Source of the DNA: Apoderus coryli
Taxonomy: Eukaryota; Arthropoda; Insecta; Coleoptera; Attelabidae
Length of the DNA stretch: 64,000 nucleotides
NCBI GenBank assembly: GCA_911728435.2
Contig: OU452202.1
Span: forward strand, 15,045,135 to 15,109,134
Direction: 5' to 3'
The first letter of the stretch is position 1; every line of letters begins with the position of its first letter. The translations under genes and the position numbers were made by a program. The notes under the pieces were generated by a model. That model saw nothing but the letters and a program-made list of their open reading frames with translations. It was not told the DNA's origin and ran no database searches. Shown here one piece after another: positions 3,673-64,000 of this stretch.

Positions 3673-3728
3673 TATACCAGAGTTATGCTTGAAAATATAT
3701 AAATTGGACTTCATCACAACATACCAGG

Positions 3729-5327
3729 CAATTTATAGACTTGGCTAAAGCATTTGACACCGTTGACCACAACTTGTTATTGGAGAAGTTGGAAAGAGCG
3801 GGTGTCAGGGGACTGCCACTGAAATTGTTCCAGAGTTATTTGACTGGAAGAACTCAAAAAGTTAAAATACACACTGTTGTGAGTAACGCACAAAAAATAG
3901 AATGCGGAATCCCTCAGGGGACAGTTCTGGGCCCAATTTTGTTCAATGTGTATTTGAATGATTTGCTCTCTTTGAATTGCAGTGGCACTTTGGTCTCGTT
4001 TGCAGATGACACGGCTCTTTTTGTTGAGGGGGGAAACTGGACTGAAGTTAAGGAGCAAGTAGTTCGTGTTATAGATAATCACTAAATGGTTTGATAAATA
4101 TAAATTAACAATAAATCTAAACAAAACGGTATATTTGCCTTTTACAAATAATGTTAAAACGCTGCCCCTAGATACTAATTTGAATGTGTTCCTGCCTCAG
4201 AGAAATCGGCCGTGGGACATAGAGAGACGAGACTCAGTTAAATACTTAGGAATAATTCTAGACAAACATTTAAAATGGGATCTTCATATAAACTCTTTAG
4301 TCTCAAAAATACGATCGCTGATGTTTATTTTTAAACAAACAAGAAAAATACTTACGATCAAGGAAAATTTGACCCTCTATTACTCGTTGGTCCAATCTTT
4401 GCTAAGTTACGGAATAGTCGGTTGGGGAGGGGCTTATAATTCCAATTTAAAGCCACTATTTATTATTCAAAAGAGGATTCTAAAAATAATATTTCATCTG
4501 AATGTTCGATTTCCATCAGTCTCTCTATTTCATAAGTGCAAAGTTCTAAATATCCGAAACTTGTTTTATAAAGCAGCTTTATTGCAGTTGCATAAGGATA
4601 AAATGTTGCTTAGTCCGATTGAGCATAAACACAATACGCGACAAAAATATAATAAAAAAATACGACAACCAAAAACAGCAAGAACTATCGGACAAAGGTC
4701 TTTTTTTCTGAGACGGGAAAAAAGTTTGACATATTTACCCTCTTGACAGGTAATAAAATGTCACTTTTTATCCCCGGGAAAAAAGTGAGTACTTTTTTCC
4801 CGGACACATAAGTAACGGTAGATATTTAATTCTAGGAAATTTTATTATACAAAAGTTACATTTTCTTTATATATCAAAACTGGCAATAATTTGTGACGCT
4901 ACTTTTGCTGCTTCTACTGACTCCGGTGGAGTGTTCGCAATTTTAAATTAAATTACAGAATGAAATTGACAGATATTTGATTACTTTTTTAAAACTTCAA
5001 ATTTCACTTGGATAATTTTCTGACTTTTTTCAATATTAAATCGAAGTTTTTCCCGTGTCAGAAAAAAATAGTGTATCATACACGGGAAAAAAGTTAGATT
5101 TTAGCTCTCGGTTTTTTGTCTCCCTCCGCTGCGCGTCGGGAGATAACACAACCTCGAGCTAAAATCTAGTACTTTTTTCCCTTGTATAATAAATAACTAT
5201 TTTTTATATAGGCCATAAATTTTATAATGTTCTACCAGAAAATATAAAAGCAAAAATGTACTTGGCGTGTTTTAAAAGGACGGTGAGCTGTTGGCTTGGG
5301 GAGTATAATCCCACATTAATGACATAG
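3729..5327 (+). pseudogene. Jockey/CR1-like LINE reverse transcriptase, broken
   Basis: The reading frame from about 3729 gives FIDLAKAFDTVDH (palm motif A with its first catalytic Asp), then GIPQGTVLGPILF, then SFADDTALF with the second Asp pair. A one-base frameshift near 4085 moves the reading into the frame that continues DKYKLTINLNKT and YLGIILDKHLKW, the thumb region typical of jockey and CR1 clade LINEs. An inserted palindromic element (about 4702-5200) splits the C-terminal part. The frame resumes at about 5202 with YIGHKFYNVLPENIKAKMY and stops at 5325-5327. The endonuclease domain and 5' end are missing: the DNA immediately upstream is the foldback element at 2883-3672. This is a 5'-truncated, inactive copy. 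Confidence 0.9.
4702..5200. mobile_element. GGGAAAAAAGT palindromic element, copy 1
   Basis: A roughly 500-bp insert interrupts the LINE reverse transcriptase. It is almost identical to 55514-56015. It starts TTTTTTCTGAGACGGG, and the reverse complement of that start recurs internally near 5046-5068. A palindrome with 13-bp arms, CCGGGAAAAAAGT and its complement around GAGT, sits at about 4775-4804. The last about 120 bp form another hairpin (TTAGATTTTAGCTC against GAGCTAAAATCTA) whose loop holds a GC-rich hairpin, CTCCCTCCGCTGCGCGTCGG. GGGAAAAAAGT occurs repeatedly in alternating orientation. There is no coding frame. Superfamily unknown; the T-rich target is consistent with a short duplication that cannot be fixed. 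Confidence 0.8.
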
Positions 5328-5792
5328 GTAATTCATATATTATGTAATGTATATTGCTTTAAATTCATTTTTAGAGGACTGTGTCTGTTCTATGTGGGAT
5401 CGTACGCAGAAGAAATTGTGTTTCTCTTTTTTCTGTTTATCTGTATTTTAATGTTTTAAGTTTATGGATATCATCGGGGAACCACATTATATTGTTTTGA
5501 AATTTTGCGTTTGGGGGGATTTATGTTATGGGATTTGAGATTGTTCAGTTCAGGGTCAGGATGGAGCTGTGAACAGAAAAAATGTAAAGTATCGGCCGTT
5601 GAGCGGGAGCGGACAAGTTTTACTAAAAAACTTTTGCTCCTTGCTCAGGGGTTTGAGTATTATATATTTAAATCGTAGCATAATATTATTTTTCTTATAT
5701 TTATTTCTGGCTTTATATGTATTATAAACAAGTTTATATTTTGTGGAATTTTTTTTTTAATGGAAATAAATATATTATTATTAATTATTATT
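5328..5792 (+). other. LINE 3' untranslated region and ATT-repeat tail
   Basis: Non-coding DNA continues from the LINE stop codon through a T-rich region to GGAAATAAATATATTATTATT, an ATT-type tail that probably marks the 3' end of the LINE insertion. Confidence 0.55.
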
Positions 5793-5921: not shown

Positions 5922-5964
5922 CAAACCTGAAGAAGTTACTAATTAGTAACGAAACGTCGTTGTT
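5922..5964 (+). ncRNA. Hammerhead-core-like motif, degenerate
   Basis: CTGAAGA is followed by a 6-bp stem (GTTACT/AGTAAC, loop AATT) and then GAAACGTC. AAC before the first box can pair with GTT after GTC. This matches the order of a type I hammerhead core, but stem III has almost no room, so self-cleavage as a monomer is doubtful. Confidence 0.3.
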
Positions 5965-7376
5965 GTTATCGGTTTATTTAATTAATTTGACGAAAATAAA
6001 AATGGATATTGTTTTTGCTTAAAAAAGTTTTGAAATATTTTTTTTTTTATAAAAACACCCAAAGAACAAATCAACTAAAAAAAAAATATAGAATTACGGT
6101 TCAAGAATAAACAAAGAAAAAATATATATAAATTGGGGTCTGAAGTTGGGGATTGGGCGATAATTATTTACAATCTTGTGCTATTTTTTGCGACTAACGT
6201 ATTGTAACATATTAAGATAATTTTTTTGTAAATGTAGCTTAAATCTTGTAGAACAGGTTTGACCTATAATAGTTGATTTTAAGCAATTGGTTATTATGTC
6301 ATATACAGAGGTAAAAAGAAAGTAATGATTTTTTGTTAAATTTTAGAGCAATCTGTGGAGTGAACGAATGAAAGTAGAAATTATTCGATAATGACAAATT
6401 AAAGATTGATCATTTCTGAGCAATTTGGTTTTTTACTCACTCTGAGAACTCACTTATTAAGGAAGTTACGGGGTTCCGTTAAAAAGGTGCATATTGGTCA
6501 CGCATTTTATGGGGATCACATTGGGTCAACGGATATTGCTTAGAGATCATTCGGCTAATTTTGCCGATGTGTGTAGTTGATTTTTCTAGGATATTCCTCA
6601 ACTACCTTCAAAATTTCAAGAGCCTCTGTCTGTCTATTCAGGTGACAAACTGTCGAATATTTTCAGGAAACCTGTTTTGGGCCAAAAAAAAAATAGTGGA
6701 AGATAGGTATTAAGACAAAGTACTCTAAAAAGGATATGGAACCAAAAATATAATTATTATGTACAACGTGTTCCATTTAATAAAAAAGTGGGTATCAACT
6801 TCCGGTATAACTGGAAGTGGCTCAAATATTTTAGACGTTTAGATTATATTGACTTACTTCAAAGAAACGTCTAACCTACCATCCGACCGTGTATAGATAC
6901 ACAATAATTTTATAAACGAATTAAATTTTATGTAATGAACAGATGGAGAGAAGTAGCTTAGTTTGGCAAAGTGTATTATTATACATCGTGAATTTTTTAT
7001 GGTTGCACGTTGTTTTTCCATAAAATTGAAATAATTAAAGTAAAGTTGTATGGCTTTGTAATTTTTCCTTTCTAGTATTATTATTAGGTAACTTGTTCTT
7101 GACGTCAGACTGTTCGACTCTCGTTTATAAAATATTCCGTATATTGAGAAATTAGGAATAGAGGAAAACAGGTTGCTTGGTAAAATAAATTGTACGAGGG
7201 TTCCTAGAGAAATTTCGGGATAAACAAGTAAAAACAATTATTGATTTGTTTCAACCAACGCATTATCAGTGGTCGGTTTCACTGCAACCTCATGGGCTTA
7301 TTGTGAAAAGACGCCGTATGTTATGCCACCCTATCCAACAACCCTGTACCCTCCACTAACTTGTGGAGTTCAGTTA
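5965..7376. other. Repeat-derived DNA without a recognisable gene
   Basis: Nothing with a supportable coding identity was found. ACAACGTGTTCCATTTAATA at about 6761 looks like a transposon terminus of the TA class, but I could not find its partner. A 127-codon minus-strand frame at 6854-7237 has AT-driven composition and no motif, and I do not regard it as a gene. Confidence 0.35.
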
Positions 7377-16133: not shown

Positions 16134-16306
16134 GTATGTTTTGATTTTCTAATTTAAATGTTTTTTGTTTTTTTACTTTCTTGAAGATGATTTGCTCACG
16201 AATGTCTGCAACATTATTTTTTAATATCTAATATAAATATGTAAAAGATAACTTTTGATAATTACAATTATTAGTAAACGATACACAACAAATTATTATA
16301 AGTATA

Positions 16307-16625
16307 AGATGTTTTTGGTGACATTTAGTGTGAGCAGGCAATATGCCTGGTGAAATACAGTTCACAAACGAAGGCCGGACGAGAAGCAGCAACTCCATCA
16401 TATCCTATTGCTAACTCTAGATGCACCCGAATTCCCTGGCGGGAGGATTTCTTTATGAATTATTGCTTGTTACATAAAGTAACAAAGTGCTTTCTCCAGA
16501 CGGGACGTTTCGTTGATCCACAACTCATCAGTGGTGGTAGGCAGGCAATGTGAACCAAATTTCCAACATAACTAAAAGTCTTGTTACTTTATGTAACAAG
16601 CAATTATTCATAAATTATTATATTT
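16307..16625. mobile_element. Hammerhead-bearing foldback element, copy 1
   Basis: It begins near TTTGGTGACATTTAG and includes TAGATGCACCCGAATTCCCT followed by GGCGGGAGGA. Inverted arms follow, ATTGCTTGTTACATAAAGTA at about 16461 and the complement at about 16583. Between them lies a minus-strand hammerhead ribozyme. The copy at 62520-62965 has the same order: TTTGGTGACATCTAG, TAGATGCGCCGATACTCCCT, inverted arms with CTTGTTTAACAAAACAAG, and a hammerhead. No coding frame is visible. Confidence 0.55.
16494..16536 (-). ncRNA. Minimal type I hammerhead ribozyme
   Basis: Read on the minus strand: CCA, then CTGATGA, then stem II GTTG/CAAC with loop TGGAT, then GAAA, then CG-TCC-CG (2-bp stem III), then TC and TGG. 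CCA and TGG close stem I at the junction, the A of GAAA can pair with the U before the cleavage site, and the predicted cut is after the C of TC. All invariant core bases are present. Such two-pair stem III hammerheads are known from Penelope-like elements and other retroelements. No Penelope protein is seen here. Whether it cleaves is inference. Confidence 0.65.
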
Positions 16626-21864: not shown

Positions 21865-22868
21865 ATTTATTCACCATCTTATGTTACCTAACATGTATAG
21901 TACGTCAAAAAAGAACAAAAATTAATCAATCAAAGTTACAGCAACAAAGAAAGGCTTACAAACAAATTAAAATAGCATCAACATAAAACAAACTAAAATC
22001 TAGAAAAATCTTACAATATCGCATCTGAAATAGTCCTCAAAGGTATAAAAAGCTTGAGATATCAAAAATGATTTAATACTTTTGTTAAACTGGACTTCAC
22101 CAAGGTTCTTTATGTGAGACGGCAGCTTATTATAAAATTTAACACAATAATAGTCAGAACCTTTCCTAGTCCTCAATAGGCGGTGAAATTCAGGCAATAT
22201 GTCATTACGAGTTCGCGTACCATAATTATGCATATCAGAGTGAAGAGTGAAATGCGAGGCATTGGTTCGAATGTAGCCAAGAGCCAGTTTAAGATGTACA
22301 AGGAAGGCAAAGTAAGTAGTCCGTGTTCAACAAAATACTTTTTACAGCAGTCACGTCATCCGAGCCCCAACATTGTACGTAAACATCTCCTCTGTAGCTT
22401 GAAGATTTTCATTGCATGGGAACTATGTCCCCAGTTCAAAATACCATACGACATACGGGAAACAAAATAACCATGATATACCGTCAACAGACTGGCGATT
22501 GAAACACTCTGCGCAAGCCTTCTGATCAGATATATGACCCTGGACAGCGAGCACCCAAGTTCTCGAACATGACTCTCCCAGGTTAATTTAGGATCAAGAT
22601 GAACCCCAAGGAACTTCACGCGAACATCGCTCTGAAGATCGATAGGCGCAGAACGCAATGTAAAGTTCATGCTCTGAGTTTTAGCCTGATTCAAGCTCAG
22701 TTCATTTGCCAGAAACCAATTGCCTATGTCAGTCTCAACAGCATTAACCAACTCTCCTAAAGGGTCGTTTGGTCGATATCTAATCAGACTAGTTGTGTCG
22801 TCAGCAAAGAGGATTATATTTGACTCTTCTTGAAATTTGTATAAATCATTTACGTATATTAAAAACAA
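21865..22868 (-). pseudogene. Jockey-like LINE reverse transcriptase, 5'-truncated
   Basis: On the minus strand the frame starts FLIYVNDLYKF and ILFADDTTSLI with the catalytic DD, continues with VKFLGVHLDPKLTWESHV and SRMSYGILNWGHS, then QRRCLRTMLGLG. Frameshifts occur near 22340 and near 22275, after which LALGYIRTNASHF and HNYGTRTRNDI continue the C-terminal domain to the stop at 22000. The UTR ends in AATAAATATATC near 21875. Motif A and everything before it are missing; the truncation point abuts the transposon end at 22888. Confidence 0.9.
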
Positions 22869-22889
22869 TAAAGCTTAAAAGTAACTGTA

Positions 22890-25078: not shown

Positions 25079-27481
25079 CAGGGTGAACTATCACTCAAAA
25101 ATAAAAAAAAAATAAAAAATTTTGACCACGTGCTCAGAGAAGCATGAAAAAAATTTGTTTCGGAATTTTTATTCCATGTTTACAAAATGGGGCAAATCCA
25201 CGTTTTTCCGCGGTAAATCGGCGCCTATGACAACCATTTTTCAATATGACCTCCAACATATGAACAGCTGTAGGGTGAATATTCGCGGCGTTGCCAATTG
25301 TAGAGACGGCGAAAATGAACAGTTTTGTTAATAATAATAATTAAAATACCTGATAAATAAGTTCATCTGCATAATTGTACATTACTTCTTCGCTTTTGGA
25401 AACTGCTAAAAAGATATTTTCGCATATTGAACAACTACACTAATAACAAAAACCGCAAACACACTAAAATGTCCGATTATTTTACTCAAATGGGTTATTT
25501 TTACAACTTCTCGCGTAGCGAAAAAACCAAATGTTCGAAGAGGCCACCGTTAACTTCACTTTATTTCCGCTCTTAATCACTGAATTTCATCATCACCAAT
25601 CTCCGTTTCATAGACAAGTCTTCATGTAGATCACAAAATTTAAACAAACAAATCATAGATAAATGTTTATTAAAACAAATAAAAAATACGGTTAATAATC
25701 TTAAGGTATAAACATGCATTATAATATGATAAAAATTTTGGGAATTTGTTTTTGCAAAGCAGCAATTTTATTATTAATGAAATCTTAAATATTCACTGTT
25801 AATAGCAAAAAATAACAACTAACAACAAACTTGTTATATTGACATAAAAAAAATATTTGACAGTTCACAATTTCCTGAAAACTAAAACATTAGTCGAATT
25901 CACGCCATGACCGATTATATCCGGTTATAAAAGGTTTAACTTTTTGCATTCACGCGACCCCGGATATTGCCGGTTTCACTATGATGACGTGACGAAAAAG
26001 CCCTTCATGAATATTATCATTAGCACTGTGTTTATTATTATAATAAACACAATTATATTATATTATTATTATAATAAACTCAATGTCATTAGCTAATTTG
26101 CGCTTCATTTTTTAGGTAACTAGGTTTGTTTTCACAGGCTGCATGCTTAAATCGTCAGAAACAGTCTCTATTCTGCGCAAATCAATTACATCGCGTGTCA
26201 ACAAAGTTATGCGCAGAATCCATACTGTTTCTGACAGTTTTGAAGCCTATGAAAACAAATCTAGTTACGTGAAAAATTAAGCGCAATTTGCTAATGACAA
26301 TGTTGAGTTTCACGTTCCTTTTACAAAAAAAAAAATCAAGTGAGATGAGCCGTAGGTGTTCATGTCACATCATTGGTTTGCGCAGAATCCCGACTGTTTC
26401 TGACGGTTTCGGACTCTTGTGAAACCCCAAAGAAAATATATAATGTCACAGTTAACATACACATGTTAGCTAACATACACATGTTAGCTGTGATAATGTC
26501 ATGAAGGTCTTTTTCGTGACGCCATCAAAGTGAAACCGCCAATCGGGGTCGCGTGAATGCAAAAAGTTAAACCGGTTATAATCGGTCATGGAGTGAACTC
26601 GACTTATGTTTTAGTTTACAGGAAATTGTGAACTGTCAAATATCTGTTGTAAATATAATTTATATGCACAAGTTAAGTAGTTGTTGATATTTTTTGCTAA
26701 GTAAAGATTTCGTTAATAATAAAATTGCTGCTTTGCAAAAACAAATTCCCAAAATATTTATCAGAATATAATGCAGGTTTATACCGTAAGATTATTAACC
26801 GTATTTTTTATTTGTTTCAATAAACACTTATCTATGATTTGTTCGTATAAATTTTGTGATCTACATGAAGACTTGTCTATGAAACGGAGATTGGTGATGA
26901 TGAAATTCAGTGATTAAGTGCGGAAATAAAGTGAAGTTAACGGTGGCCTCTTCGAACATTTGGTTTTTTCGCTACACGAGAAGTTGTAAAAATAACCCAT
27001 TTGAGTAAAATAATCGGACATTTTAGTGTGTTTGCGGTTTTTGTTATTAGTGTAGTTGTTGTGTTAAACAAGAAGAGTGAACGAGGAAAACCAAGCGATC
27101 CCCAGGAAGTTCAAAAATCATTCTATGGCATGTTAGACATATCCGAAAGGTAGGTGCTAACATAATATTTAATATTTCGCATGATTGCAAGTCACAAAAT
27201 CATCTACATTTTCTAAATAAATTTTTTACTTTAAATGCTCGGTAAATCGATACACTTGGCAACATGTCGCTGTATTATAACCTTTAGACTAATGTCTAAT
27301 TTTAACTTCAGTTGGGCAGGCGGTCATAGGCGTCGTAAAAAGGGAGTTTAATATGATTTACAAAAAAATTATTTTCAGCCTTAATAAAAATGTTGGAAAT
27401 TTTTTTGAAAGGCGATTCTGTTAAATCTTATTTTTCTCTACCTCCAGTTAAAATTTTTGTACTGAGTGATAGTTCACCCTG
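25079..27481. mobile_element. TA-flanked 2.4-kb transposon enclosing a giant hairpin
   Basis: The ends CAGGGTGAACTATCACTCA are inverted copies flanked by TA at 25077-25078 and 27482-27483. Outer inverted similarity extends about 160 bp, including the CCTATGAC segment. Inside is a second, much longer inverted repeat (25428-27062). No transposase motif is visible in any frame I read. A short open frame with a splice-donor-like end lies at about 26940-27149. It is a non-autonomous or degraded element of the Tc1/mariner target class. Confidence 0.8.
25428..27062. repeat. Giant inverted repeat, arms about 0.6 kb
   Basis: The left arm (about 25428-26024) and right arm (about 26495-27062) are inverted copies with few differences, for example AACAACTACACTAATAACAA at 25428 and its complement at 27043, and TGAAATTCAGTGATTAAG-type segments in both. 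The loop holds a second inverted pair of about 100 bp (about 26086-26190 and 26205-26310) built around GTCAGAAACAGT, and a third partial copy at about 26373. A transcript crossing the unit would form a long double-stranded RNA. Confidence 0.85.
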
Positions 27482-40192: not shown

Positions 40193-41350
40193 GTGCAATG
40201 CATAAAAGCACAAAGGCATTGTTATATTTATATATTATATTATAATACATTGCCACAAAAAAATTATATTGTGCAATGCTATGGAATTAGGGAAAACTCG
40301 TTAAGAGAAATAATAAGGCTAAAATTCCCAGATAGTGTTGTGTCACGTACAGCGGCTATGAGAATCATAAAAAAGTTTTTGGCTACTGGTAGTGTTCTAA
40401 ACTTGAAGAGAAAAAAAAGTTATAGCATGACGCAGACTCAGGGAGCTTCAACGAATTTACAAAGTAAAAATAAGGGCCCATAAAGCTATTCATAAACATA
40501 CACTTGAAGAAGGAGATCATGGCCGCAGGTTGGATTTTTGTTTAACTATTGGAGAAAAAAATTATAGAAGACAGATATTTTCATCAAAATTGGTCATCTG
40601 AAAATCCCAATTTTAGAATTCATTCTAGACGACAGTATTATAAAAAAGTAAAGCCAGCACATTTACTTAGAGATTCTTGAATGATTTTCTCAGGAAAATC
40701 TACATAATTTTAGAAATATGCTTTTAATTCATTTAGAACACGCGACGGCTGCCCTATTCACTCCACAGAAGCAGTTAATCAGTGGTTGAATTTAAATTTT
40801 GGAGACCATTGGCTTACCAGAAATGAACTGATCAAGTGCCCGCCGAGATCCCCTGACTTATCAATATTGGACTTCTTTTTATGGGGTCGTCTCAAACAAT
40901 TGGTTTATGCTGAACCATTTCCTAATGATGCGGCAATATTACAGGAAAGAATTAGATACGCTGCAAACTCTTTGACTTTAGAACAAATTCAAAATAGTTT
41001 TAAGAAATTCAGGATCGAAAGATGTGCGGTGATTATATTGAATAAATGTATATTACAAAATATTAAACCTATACATTTGTTGTCTCAATTTTGATATTTA
41101 TTATGTGTTATAATGTTTATGTGGCGTTTGTTCTAAGATACAAAATAAAATAATACGAAGTATTCTAAGATAATACTAATTATTACAAAAAAGTCTTTTC
41201 TCAAAAATATGCTTTTATATTCTTGAAATTCGGTGCGGAGATATAAAATTGCATTCGAAACAACTTTTGTGACAGAATTTTGGCGTATGCTTTAAAATAA
41301 AGACAATCCATTGATGATGATTTTTATAAATTTGTTTATAAAACACCCTG
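40193..41350 (+). pseudogene. IS630/mariner-class transposase relic
   Basis: The N-terminal frame (to 40480) reads GIRENSLREIIRLKFPDSVV then RTAAMRIIKKFLATGSV, a helix-turn-helix like that of IS630-class transposases. In other frames follow HKHTLEEGDHGRRLDFCLTI, then GCPIHSTEAVNQWL, WLTRNELIKCPPRSPDLSIL and DFFLWGRLKQLVY, with a C-terminal helix to the stop at 41092-41094. PPRSPDL...DFFLWG is the conserved block near the last acidic residue. The middle, including the first catalytic Asp, is decayed and shortened. The right terminus, AACACCCTG followed by TA, is at 41350; the left terminus was not found. Confidence 0.8.
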
Positions 41351-41515: not shown

Positions 41516-42499
41516 AACGGTAATTTCAATATTAGTTGTTTTGCATCCAGGAATACTTAGACCAAATTAGGTGGTATTGCATACCCTGTTGTAAATGTAC
41601 GCCACAGTTTAAAAAACGATCAATTTTATTTTGCTATAAATGTTCCATTAATTACAATTACAGACTTGATAAACATCGCGAATAAAGTTCAAAAGTCAAA
41701 TAAAATGTAAATCATAAATACAAGGTGTCTTAAAGTGCATTCACTATAGCATTCGACATAATGTCTGGCGATTAAATAAATATCGAGATATGTTGTGACT
41801 ATGGATTATTCATAACTCTTTAATAGTCTTAATGTTATTTTTTGTAGCTAAATCAATTGTGGTTATTCTAAAACAAGACAATATCAAAGTTTTAAGGAAA
41901 GTAAAATTAGTTTGTGTGAAATATACTTGAATTGAATGTAAAAGTAAATAGAAAACAACAAAATTATGCAAATACCTAGTAGTAGGTACGTGTTTACGTT
42001 TATCATGTTTATAATCAGTTTTCATTTAAAGTATGGTTTAATAATATACAAAGAAAAAAAATCGGTCAATTTTATTCATTCATTCCGGTTATTTACAGTG
42101 TAAAACGACAAGCCACAAATAATTAAAATAAAAATACGAGAAATTTAACAATAACTAGAATAGAATAATGTATACAGTGAGCGTGTATAAAATATGGAAA
42201 CGGCTTATAATTTACGTGTCGATTTATACCAAATTTGTTACAGTTGTCTAAGAGGATCTTAAGCACCCTGTGATGCTATTTGCGTTGTTGCCAGCTTCTT
42301 AGTTTTTATGAAAATCAAACCAATCAAATTGTTACACGTAACAACCTGTATCTTTTCTTCATTTATAGATTCTATACGTTACATTTGCTATAATTTTGAT
42401 TGAAACACTTTTACAAATTACTGTAGATTCAGAAATAACAATTTGTTTCGAAAATATTCACAGATCGTGTTTAATTTATTAACAAATACTGACAACTGA

Positions 42500-42647
42500 A
42501 ACACGTTTTACCACTTGACCAAAACACTTTTTTTATTATCGACGCGCATTTCGCTTTCAGTTTTAATTCTCTCCTGAGGATGCTAACCTTGTTAGCGAAA
42601 CGCGCGTCGAGAATAAAAAAGTGTTTTGGTGATGTGGTAAAACGTGT
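42500..42647. repeat. Hairpin with hammerhead-like loop
   Basis: AACACGTTTTACCAC at the left is inverted at 42633-42647, and the pairing continues through CCAAAACACTTTTTTTATT and CGACGCGC to AGCGAAACGCGCGTCG. Between the arms are CTGAGGA (42574-42580), a 6-bp stem GCTAAC/GTTAGC and GAAAC (42597-42601). Because GAAAC itself also pairs with TTTC at 42550, the hairpin and the hammerhead fold are alternatives. Confidence 0.6.
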
Positions 42648-47355: not shown

Positions 47356-48495
47356 AGACCAGGGTCGATAATTTTAAAAATGGTAAAAAGTGAAAAAAAA
47401 TTATAGTAGGATGATACCCATTGGAAAAGGGAGAGAATATAACAAAAATGAAAGGAAAAATAAATTACGGCGATCTGAGGTCGGGGAGGGGGTGAGTTTT
47501 TACGGGTAAAAAACGGTTAATCTCGATTTCCGGTAAAACTGCAAGTCCTATGAAAAAAAGTTAAATGGCAAAGTTGTAGGTAATATAAAGATCTACAACT
47601 TTTGTATCGACAATTTTTTCACATAACCTCAAAATTTATGTGAAAAATTCGAATAACCGAGTTTTTGGATTTTTATTTTTATCTTTTGCAAAAAAATTTA
47701 TATATATTTATTACCTTTGTATGTCCCAAACATACAGTAATTTTTTTGATTTAAAATATTCATTTTTTCACCTTATTTTGACTTAATATCGAAAAAGCAC
47801 CCTAATTTTCAATCGCAAATTCTCACGTCAAAATATCTGCTTTTTTAAAAAAGTTGGTGTGTTTTTTGATGGCATAAAAAAATATACACTACTATGGTAA
47901 ATGTTCTCAGAAAATGCAAATAATGATCTAATAGTTTCAAATATGAATCCTTAAAAAAATATCGTTGCATTTCTCCATTGTTTTTCTGGTTGCGATACAA
48001 CATCTGGATTTGCCGGAAAAGGAAAGAAAATTTTTTGCCCAATATTTTTTATAAAAAAGATGCGAACAAAGAAGATATAAAAAAAATGGATTACAACAGA
48101 TTGGGACTGGAAGCAACATCAACGCCTAGAAAACATGGTTTAAAATGCACAAATTTATGCTCAAATTGTCATGGTTCTAAAACATGCTCCAATGTGGAAG
48201 AAAAAACCTACGAGGAAGTTGATGATTCAGATGAAATTGTGGATGAAGGACGAACCAATGCAGACCGGAAATCTTGGAGACGAAGACGGTGATGGTCTTG
48301 AAGCTTTCGAAGATCCACTAGAATCGGGAAGGTTTGTTGAATCTAACGATGAAGAAATGCCATCAAAGAGACAAAAACTAATGGAGAAGTAATTAGAAAA
48401 AAAAATTCGGAATCGAGTTTTTTTCATTATTTGCATTTTCTGAGAACATTTACCATAGTAGTATATATCTTTTTATACCATCAGACCCTGGTCTA
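47356..48495. mobile_element. Transposon relic with AGACCAGGGTC ends
   Basis: AGACCAGGGTC at 47356 is inverted at 48485-48495. The next part of the right arm (GATGGTATAAAAAGATAT, then ATGGTAAATGTTCTCAGAAA) finds its inverted partner only at 47867-47935, so about 500 bp seem to have been inserted between the left tip and the rest of the left arm. A cysteine-rich coding remnant lies inside. Confidence 0.6.
48020..48392 (+). pseudogene. Cysteine-rich transposon-protein C-terminus
   Basis: The frame reads MDYNRLGLEATSTPRKHGLK then CTNLCSNCHGSKTCSNVEEK, followed by an acidic tail that changes frame near 48270 and ends EEMPSKRQKLMEK at a stop at 48390-48392. The KHGLKCT..C..C.G...C.N pattern resembles a cysteine-rich C-terminal tail that I associate with insect transposon proteins, but I cannot name the superfamily. 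Its position inside matching inverted ends supports a transposon origin. The catalytic domain is missing. Confidence 0.5.
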
Positions 48496-62257: not shown

Positions 62258-62519
62258 TGTTTGTTCCTTAAGTAACATATTCGCGTATCTAAAAATTATA
62301 ATGATCATAATACGTCTTAAATACAGGGTTCGCACAAATTAATTCATATAAATTTTTAGAAAAAGTGACGAATTTTTTCCAACTTAATTTTTTTTACGCG
62401 AGTTTATTCATAATTAACGTACACCTCGTTTAGAAAATATGATTTTTTAAATTTTCAACCCCTGAAATAATACTTGCTCTATACACCAATAGTCAACAAA
62501 AATAATAGGAATGTAAAAG

Positions 62520-62965
62520 AATGTGTTTGGTGACATCTAGTTTTTGTTGGTAGTACGCCGAGCGAACAACAATTCACTATATCGACTGCTTGGGAGGTCC
62601 TGGCCCCATAAAGCACAACTACCAACATATAGATGCGCCGATACTCCCTTTAGCGGGACGCCTATATTAAAAATGGGCTCTTGTTTAACAAAACAAGACT
62701 TAATTCCGAGAGTTTGTCTGTCAGCCACTATACTTTCACCAGACGGCCGTTTCGTCGATCCGCTACTCATCAGTGGTGATCGGTCAGTAGTTGACAGCCA
62801 AACTCTCGTAAATACTGTGGTATATACCCCACATGCTAGAGAGATGTAAACGAATGTCGTGGATCGGCGAAACGGCCGTCTGGTGAAAGTATAATGGTTG
62901 ACAGACAAACTCTCGAAATTAAGTCTTGTTTTGTTAAACAAGCCCATTTCTAAAAATAATGGTAA
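62520..62965. mobile_element. Hammerhead-bearing foldback element, copy 2
   Basis: It begins near TTTGGTGACATCTAG and has TAGATGCGCCGATACTCCCT followed by an inverted repeat. The left arm (62668-62760: CTTGTTTAACAAAACAAGAC, GAGAGTTTGTCTGTCA, CACCAGACGGCCGTTTCG) is repeated inverted at 62860-62950. The left arm carries a minus-strand hammerhead; in the right arm the GAAAC half is present but CTGATGA is lost. The same architecture is seen at 16307-16625. Frames crossing it on both strands come from the repeat and are not genes. Confidence 0.65.
62737..62778 (-). ncRNA. Minimal type I hammerhead ribozyme
   Basis: Minus strand order: CACCA, CTGATGA, stem II GTAG/CGAC (one mismatch, loop CGGAT), GAAA, CG-GC-CG for stem III, then TC and TGGTG. 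CACCA and TGGTG give a 5-bp stem I. All invariant bases of the hammerhead core are present, with cleavage expected after the C of TC. The stem III loop is only two bases, which is tight; dimeric folding across two units is an alternative. Relationship to 16494-16536 is clear from the shared GGATC..CGAAACG...CGTCTGG sequence. Confidence 0.65.
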
Positions 62966-63187: not shown

Positions 63188-64000
63188 CGAGGGTTGCCTT
63201 TTATATTTCGGGATCTGGCAACCCTGGTGTTGCAATCTGGCAACTGACAGCTCTATCGCAAAGTTGGACATTTTTGAGGTTATACGTACTCAGAACGTTT
63301 TGACATACGAGCGCTATTTGTGTTGTTTACAGTAACTTAAAAGATTCATCTTGGCCCAAAAATGGAATTAAATCGTGAACATTTTCGTGCGATTATTTTT
63401 TACAACTTTCGACGTGGATTAACTCAGTAACAGTGCATGGATGAACTTAATTCAATTTTTGGCGATGAAGCTCCATCAAGGACCAGTGTTTATCGATGGT
63501 ATGGTGAATTTAATCGTGGTCGTAGTTCACTTCAAGACGAATTTCGTGAAAGTCGTCCAAAATCAGTTGTTGTTCCGAAAAACATTGATGCTGTGCGCGA
63601 ACTGATATTGCAAGATCGTCATGTGACCTATCAAGAGATTGAGACAACCTTAGGCATTAGTGGGATCAGCATACATTCAATATTGCATAAACATTTGACT
63701 GTCAAAAAAATTTATTCGCGTTGGATCCCACACAGTTTGTCAATCGCTCAAAAAGAGGCTTGTGTCGATTGGTCGAAAGAAATGCTCAAAAAATACGATC
63801 GTGGTGCTTCGAAACACGTCTATAATCGTGGATTTGCGCGTATGAGCCCGAAAGTAAACAGCAGTCGACTGTATGGGTGTTTCAAGATGAGCCAAATCCA
63901 ACAAAAGTTGTTCGCGCACGAAGCACTTCCAAGCAAATGGTCGCCTGTTTTTTCGAAAAAACTGGACATGTCGCAACCGTACCACTAGAACAACGCAGAA
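63188..64000 (+). mobile_element. Mariner element, 5' part, runs off window
   Basis: The left terminus CGAGGGTTGCCTTTTATATT follows TA at 63186-63187. About 170 bp of leader precede the transposase start at 63362. The right end is beyond the window. Confidence 0.85.
63362..64000 (+). pseudogene. Mariner transposase, inactivated, 3' end outside window
   Basis: ATG at 63362 opens MELNREHFRAIIFYNFRRGL then TQ and an in-frame stop at 63428-63430. After it come the first helix-turn-helix, SRTSVYRWYGEFNRGRSSLQ for the second, SVVVPKNIDAVRELI, and GISIHSILHKHLTVKKI then RWIPHSLS, all in one frame. At about 63825 a short deletion removes the residues around the first catalytic Asp (TGDE block) and shifts the frame; the frame one step over continues with QSTVWVFQDEPNPTKVV and KQMVACFFEKTGHVATVPLE. 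The stop, deletion and frameshift make it dead, but the small number of lesions suggests recent activity of the family. Confidence 0.92.

Follow-up and report, generated by a model that had tools for sequence, protein, structure and literature searches.

A predicted hammerhead ribozyme in Apoderus coryli marks two-armed, retrozyme-type insertions with two fixed outer ends

RESULTS

Hammerhead in the window

The window, by which we mean the whole 64-kb stretch of Apoderus coryli DNA analyzed here, carries near its right end a hammerhead core, CTGATGA...GAAA...GTC, on the minus strand at 62742..62773, recognized from its sequence, its Rfam score, and a strict descriptor. Read on that strand, positions 62737-62779 run TCACCA-CTGATGA-GTAG CGGAT CGAC-GAAA-CG GC CG-TC-TGGTG. 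All the invariant core bases of a type I hammerhead are present at 62742-62773, confirming the core elements that an earlier note had listed in describing a near-canonical ribozyme, and cleavage is predicted to occur after the C at 62742. Two stems depart from that description: stem II, given as 4 bp, has three of its four pairs in the window copy, with an A.G mismatch, although the intact family core does read GTCG/CGAC, and the 5-bp stem I exists but belongs to a longer inverted repeat, of which it forms the inner portion and which continues for ~30 pairs in the predicted fold of the intact unit. Stem III is short (ACGGCCGU) and self-complementary, a feature that may fit the idea of better cleavage as a dimer.

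Rfam Hammerhead_1 (RF00163) gives the window copy 30.0 bits (E 7.2e-5 in a 2-kb search) against a gathering score of 34 bits, so that on its own this copy falls short of the Rfam check that the earlier note had set. A run at the gathering threshold returned no Rfam match in the full 64-kb window, and an E-value run over the full window with stricter filters did not list the 62742-62773 site; the latter run lists a hammerhead at 42568 and several other families, all below their own cut-offs. Intact units of the relatives described below also score just under 34 (33.8 bits for five units at locus L009 of family A and 32.3 for six at L057 of family B). The strict descriptor, which combines the core with at least 4, 2, and 2 pairs in stems I, II, and III, finds one site in the window (62742-62773); of 100 dinucleotide-shuffled versions, 2 had one, a mean of 0.02. 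With a looser pattern there were 55 overlapping matches in the window where 10.4 were expected, and all but four sites were dismissed by eye. Together with Rfam, this pattern points to three more hammerhead-like sites, at 16499-16531 (-), 42574-42608 (+), and 5927-5966 (+), none of which the strict descriptor picks up.

A score under the Rfam gathering cut-off could suggest a chance hammerhead inside an unrelated inverted repeat, but we find this scarcely conceivable. The host's 428-Mb genome has 1,796 exact occurrences (899 + 897) of the intact 42-nt core and none of a reversed-pattern control, and the shuffle rate given above is very far from one site per window. The chance-motif reading is refuted by these genome copies of the intact core. 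The core pattern had no match in the viral contigs and none in the prokaryote genomes searched. Judged by its sequence, the window hammerhead is a real but decayed copy of a large family.

Two retrozyme-type families

The ribozyme lies in a decayed insertion of family A at 62507..62951, made of two head-to-head arms that are 90% and 93% identical to the intact unit. The left arm (62511..62857, minus strand) is slightly over one unit long, carries the hammerhead, and has its outer end at what we call site 2 (unit position ~231); the right arm (62856..62951, plus strand) is short, is without the CTGATGA side of the hammerhead, and has its outer end at site 1 (unit position ~70, AAGCCCATTTC). The ribozyme sense points outward, and the copy is flanked by 9-bp direct repeats, the target-site duplication AAAAATAAT at 62498..62506 and again at 62952..62960 (both plus strand). 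What had been taken for a foldback element does contain an inverted repeat (87 nt, 93% complementary), but the element is larger than that and spans 62507-62951. It is short and non-coding, as had been said, yet the inverted repeat does not stand alone as a unit: the whole is a single insertion, in two arms, of a 333-bp unit also found in tandem. A family B insertion, also with two arms (site 2 left, site 1 right), occupies 16301..16611 and contains the hammerhead-like motif at 16499-16531 (-); its target-site duplication, AAATTATTATA, lies at 16290..16300 and 16612..16622 (both plus strand).

Other repeats were seen in passing. An interrupted frame at 63360-63998 (+) looks by eye like a mariner-type transposase, with HTH_32 at 1.5e-5 as its only Pfam hit, below cut-off, and a second mariner-like piece, again by eye, lies at 40714-41094 and has no Pfam match. 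RVT_1 fragments, LINE-like by eye, occur at 3693-4085 (+; 61.3 bits) and 22356-22874 (-; 27.9 bits, just under cut-off). Inverted-repeat stretches at 26100-26286, 5075-5189, and 47542-47630 match miRNA families far below cut-offs and are perhaps MITEs. In the genome at large, COX1 with in-frame TGA gave 93 matches in all, found on C129, which is probably mitochondrial, and on other contigs as numerous fragments that are probably mitochondrial DNA copied into the nucleus.

When the window's inverted repeat was searched against the host genome at the DNA level, the best 40 of 1,225 candidates yielded 157 matches, many of which stand in tandem, 332-333 bp apart. At L009, identical units lie head to head, about 1.8 leftward and 3.5 rightward, between copies of (T)AAATAATAAGAT, while at C1:19274729-19279190 at least 14 intact cores, as listed, follow one another in a row at 340-bp spacing. 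(A further palindromic repeat adjoins the L009 insertion at 4116-4645 of that locus; it is 96% complementary, and related stretches lie at 1968-2236 and 5459-5718.) The unit measures 333 bp in family A and 336 bp in family B, with GC contents of 0.45 and 0.44; the ribozyme region and general layout are common to the two families, which are much less alike elsewhere. No stop-free run in the A and B units exceeds 56 aa, and an ORF with RT and GIY-YIG, as in a Penelope-like element (PLE), is absent from them.

Two fixed outer ends

We scored the ends of the two window copies, L002-L005, L009-L028 (picked by similarity to the window copy), and L029-L068. The last group is made up of the 40 clusters of ribozyme sites listed for the first 14.1 Mb of C1, taken regardless of their arms and all with an intact core; the C1 clusters L013, L014, and L017 were already in the sample and thus stand outside the 40. 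Scoring covered 66 loci, or 65 (42 of family A, 23 of family B) once the duplicate L012 was dropped, and one insertion was scored at L035, where there are two.

Both outer edges point outward in 48 of the 65 loci, and 44 of these 48 two-armed loci (32 A, 12 B) combine a site 1 end with a site 2 end; one is site 1/site 1, none is site 2/site 2, and three have odd ends. Site 1 is mostly at 70-72 in A and mostly at 76-78 in B, and site 2 is mostly at 227-229 in A and at 231-234 in B. Among the 40 C1 loci taken by themselves, the ends are heterotypic in 22/26 two-armed loci, or 25/29 if L013, L014, and L017 are included. The site 1/site 1 score belongs to L031 and the odd ends to L041, L046, and L053. 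By eye, the edges of L031 and L046 hold short pieces of the other site (at L031 a site 2 piece in the left flank), and at L053 the scoring script overlooked an outer piece whose end is at 70; L041 is decayed and has no duplication. The one-armed copies, 17 of the 65, end at site 1 (four) or site 2 (four) in A and at site 1 (seven) or site 2 (two) in B, and two of the one-armed site 1 copies of B, L040 and L055, have a short site 2 piece in the flank. Direct repeats accompany 41 of the 44 site 1/site 2 loci, with a median length of 13, a mode of 12, and 34 of them perfect. The scored outer edges all avoid the ribozyme cut site, to which that of L041, at 314 of 333, comes nearest. The outer ends, which are internal positions of the unit, are fixed, with one site per arm, and the inner junctions are variable, as are unit numbers, from locus to locus.

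Nearly constant outer ends and regular duplications could also be expected of a foldback or MITE DNA transposon that has two different ends and moves by cut and paste, with the ribozyme as a passenger. A constant interior would go with such an element, but here inner junctions and unit numbers differ by locus, and 17 of 65 copies have one such end only. Units are, moreover, more alike within than between insertions: full units within an insertion are identical at L009, L045, and L057 (1.000) and nearly so at L011 (0.982), no other locus having more than one full unit, against a mean identity of 0.966 between insertions (65 pairs). The varying interiors, the one-armed copies, and the likeness of units within an insertion lead us to reject a DNA transposon or MITE, which we regard as highly improbable.

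Templates and predicted folds

If the two arms of an insertion were copied from one RNA, they should resemble each other. An arm shares 97.3% mean identity with its own partner and 95.1% with arms of other same-family insertions (41 loci). The partner match exceeds the mean over the other insertions' arms in 35/41 loci and ranks best or tied in 15/41; in the remaining 6/41 it does not exceed that mean. Clear arm-arm matches are those of L045 (685/685) and L029 (403/403), in both of which the arms differ from the reference; the arm-arm identity is not above both arm-reference values in 19/41 loci, and the old copies L051 and L041 fail. A common template for both arms is thus suggested on average, not at every locus. 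The identity of units within insertions fits repeated copying of one circle, and a linear multimer may have been the template instead.

In its predicted circular fold, the A unit is a rod in which the region between sites 1 and 2 forms a long hairpin, and the B unit is similar. The mean predicted unpaired probability over 16 units is 0.76 at site 1 and 0.71 at site 2, compared to 0.36 overall. Both sites fall in the same predicted loop in 8/16 units, versus 0.109 for rotations; in these models, the shared loop is a tendency and not a constant.

Penelope-like elements of the host

The earlier note had pointed out that no Penelope protein was visible, and indeed none was found in the window, but GIY-YIG matches in the host genome are many (1,260 candidates, of which the best 150 were scored), and the window does hold PLE-derived hammerhead-like pieces. 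A short two-armed PLE insertion, of subfamily C, lies at 42494..42645, with both arms matching the 3' end of the PLE at L077 and a minimal hammerhead in its plus arm at 42574-42608 (+; Rfam 24.7 bits, below cut-off); it is too decayed for its tail or duplication to be read. The hammerhead-like motif at 5927..5966 (+) is in a fragment resembling the end of a second PLE group (D; compare L102).

Among the scored matches, neighboring GIY-YIG pairs less than 6 kb apart are arranged minus then plus, 3' ends outward, in 18/18 cases. The two 2.26-kb arms of L077 share 99.2% identity and hold, in their unedited form, frames of 718 and 774 aa, and the long frame (773 residues) contains both RVT_1 (2e-15) and GIY-YIG (4e-6), as a PLE ORF should. 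A minimal hammerhead was found by pattern in each L077 arm; Rfam at E 0.01 does not list them. A ~32-nt "tail" closes one arm of L077 and is missing from the other, and a tail on exactly one arm was seen in 17/17 readable PLE insertions (19 examined). The 19 comprise eight short copies (L069-L076), L077 itself, and ten further pairs: in L069-L077, eight of nine were readable and 8/8 heterotypic, the ninth being the decayed window copy, and in the ten further pairs, nine were readable and 9/9 heterotypic, with L084 unreadable. Three mutated tails were missed by a strict match and recovered by a looser match and by eye. As for the 18 GIY-YIG pairs, four were left out, and three, of the second PLE group (L101-L106), had ends that lay out of reach or could not be read. 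In 15/17 readable PLE insertions, the flanks are direct repeats of 11-14 bp. The tail pattern has 414 occurrences, and among the first 100 listed there is one minus/plus tail pair within 6 kb. This tail/tail pair, L098 (C5:43790580-43790960), is a complex palindrome with its flank inverted too and is an exception to the one-tail rule; we read it as a different rearrangement or template switch.

Another possible source of inverted arms is self-priming, or snap-back copying with an antisense template, the route suggested for rotifer PLEs in the parts of PMC3846280 drawn on here, where head-to-head is the most frequent arrangement and self-priming is the preferred explanation. The inverted flank of L098 would suit such a process. 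Simple snap-back copying should, we infer, give both arms the same outer end, but the ends differ in 44/48 retrozyme loci and in 17/17 readable PLEs. These differing outer ends are why snap-back copying is rejected, and as the source of the arms we judge it improbable.

A target preference common to retrozymes and PLEs

Insertions were restored to their empty sites for 32 retrozyme sites with perfect repeats and for 15 PLE sites. In both, the trimer most often found outside the cut is AAC, at 17/64 half-sites in retrozymes versus 1.2 expected and at 9/30 in PLEs versus 0.8 expected, the count allowing slack in the cut position and the expectation being thus somewhat too low. By offset, AAC/GTT half-sites peak at the edge of the duplication, with 13 for retrozymes and 6 for PLEs, all other offsets having at most 5 and at most 3, respectively. 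Going by these restored sites, retrozymes and PLEs both prefer a palindromic AAC^N12^GTT cut site, and this is a preference only, with AAC at 17/64. CGCCAAA, a 7-mer found both in the PLE tail and at site 2 of the retrozymes, does not reach significance (shuffle P 0.10).

Because the paired insertions obey the same rules as the host PLEs, PLE machinery suggests itself as the mover of the retrozymes. A LINE might have done this instead by ordinary twin priming, a process known for LINE-1, and the window has the LINE-like RVT_1 fragments described above; duplications of human L1 are 15 bp in the portion of PMC4245944 consulted. The two fixed internal starts, one per strand, and the AAC^N12^GTT preference are nevertheless both common to the retrozymes and the host PLEs, which argues against a LINE, in our judgment an unlikely mover.

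DISCUSSION

How such an element is copied can be reconstructed in outline. We think it likely that the ribozyme is part of a non-autonomous, non-coding element of animal-retrozyme type and that PLE machinery copies this element from RNA, probably in the form of circles, priming both nicked strands at two fixed RNA sites. By analogy with the published family, arrays would be transcribed and the hammerhead would cut the transcripts into 333-nt RNAs, to be ligated to circles. A Penelope-like RT/GIY-YIG enzyme, the presumed partner, would nick both strands of an AAC^N12^GTT-like target ~12 bp apart, in keeping with the observed preference and duplication. Both nicked strands would then serve as primers on the RNA, site 1 (~70) being used by one and site 2 (~228) by the other; these stretches are predicted to be mostly unpaired, and they flank the long hairpin. 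Each cDNA would run to a variable stop, sometimes going more than once round the template, and joining of the two cDNAs in the middle would produce the two head-to-head arms that we observe. PLEs would insert likewise, via the two sides of their own tail.

From this reconstruction we lean, if only slightly, toward a broader proposal, that PLEs and animal retrozymes have a distinct mode of integration. One circular or multimeric RNA would template both nicked strands from two fixed internal starts, one per strand, with repeated rounds of copying, and the retrozyme hairpin would play the part of the PLE tail. The rule of two fixed ends, combined with the PLE-like cut preference and duplication length, supports PLEs as retrozyme movers. 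It also predicts exact RT start positions, which can be tested with purified PLE protein, and it offers a simple reading of both the PLE tail and the head-to-head PLE copies.

Metazoan non-LTR retrozymes, as presented in the sections of PMC7229834 (Cervera & de la Pena 2020) used here, have a type I hammerhead and ~170-400-nt non-coding tandem units of low GC, with duplications of >4 bp and PLEs in the same genome, and insects are among the named hosts. Families A and B resemble them in having a type I hammerhead with a complete core and three stems (Rfam 33.8 for A and 32.3 for B, with a gathering score of 34), a short non-coding tandem unit of low GC that lies within the ~150-450 bp we allowed, and a target-site duplication of >4 bp (median, 13). 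In the published model, as far as the sections used of PMC7229834 and PMC7761336 describe it, circles are copied by RT, priming is left open, and PLEs are a strong candidate; the same part of PMC7761336 describes the repeats as lacking any conserved motif from which the autonomous partner could be recognized. The families differ from published retrozymes in that most of the insertions examined here consist of two arms, set head to head, whose outer ends are fixed at two sites; the main text of PMC7229834 nowhere uses the word "inverted". Within the open-licence literature searched, to the extent that its texts were accessible, we found no description of retrozymes with PLE-like anatomy, one start site per strand, and a common cut preference.

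For PLEs themselves, the part of PMC11167929 considered here reports that a purified protein (anole) cuts and extends both strands and that RT starts internally at two sites bounding the tail; in that account, the ribozyme is not needed in vitro and the start site is without strand difference. Rotifer PLEs, according to the portion of PMC3846280 cited above, are mostly head-to-head, with a tail that is optional on one of the inverted pLTRs and with self-priming favored. Families A and B are like these PLEs (PMC11167929, PMC3846280, in the same portions) in their head-to-head arms, minimal type I hammerhead, and AT-rich targets and, as reconstructed above, would also share the internal RT start and both-strand cutting. 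PLEs encode RT and GIY-YIG, whereas the A and B units encode nothing visible, and the two proposed start sites of the retrozymes are ~158 nt apart, versus ~32 in PLEs.

The LINE-1 system offers a second comparison. In LINE-1 twin priming, inverted arms result from two primed strands, copying starts at the 3' end of the RNA, and twin priming is a minority outcome. Families A and B differ from LINE-1 on both counts, as both proposed starts here are internal and one end of each kind is the norm among the loci examined.
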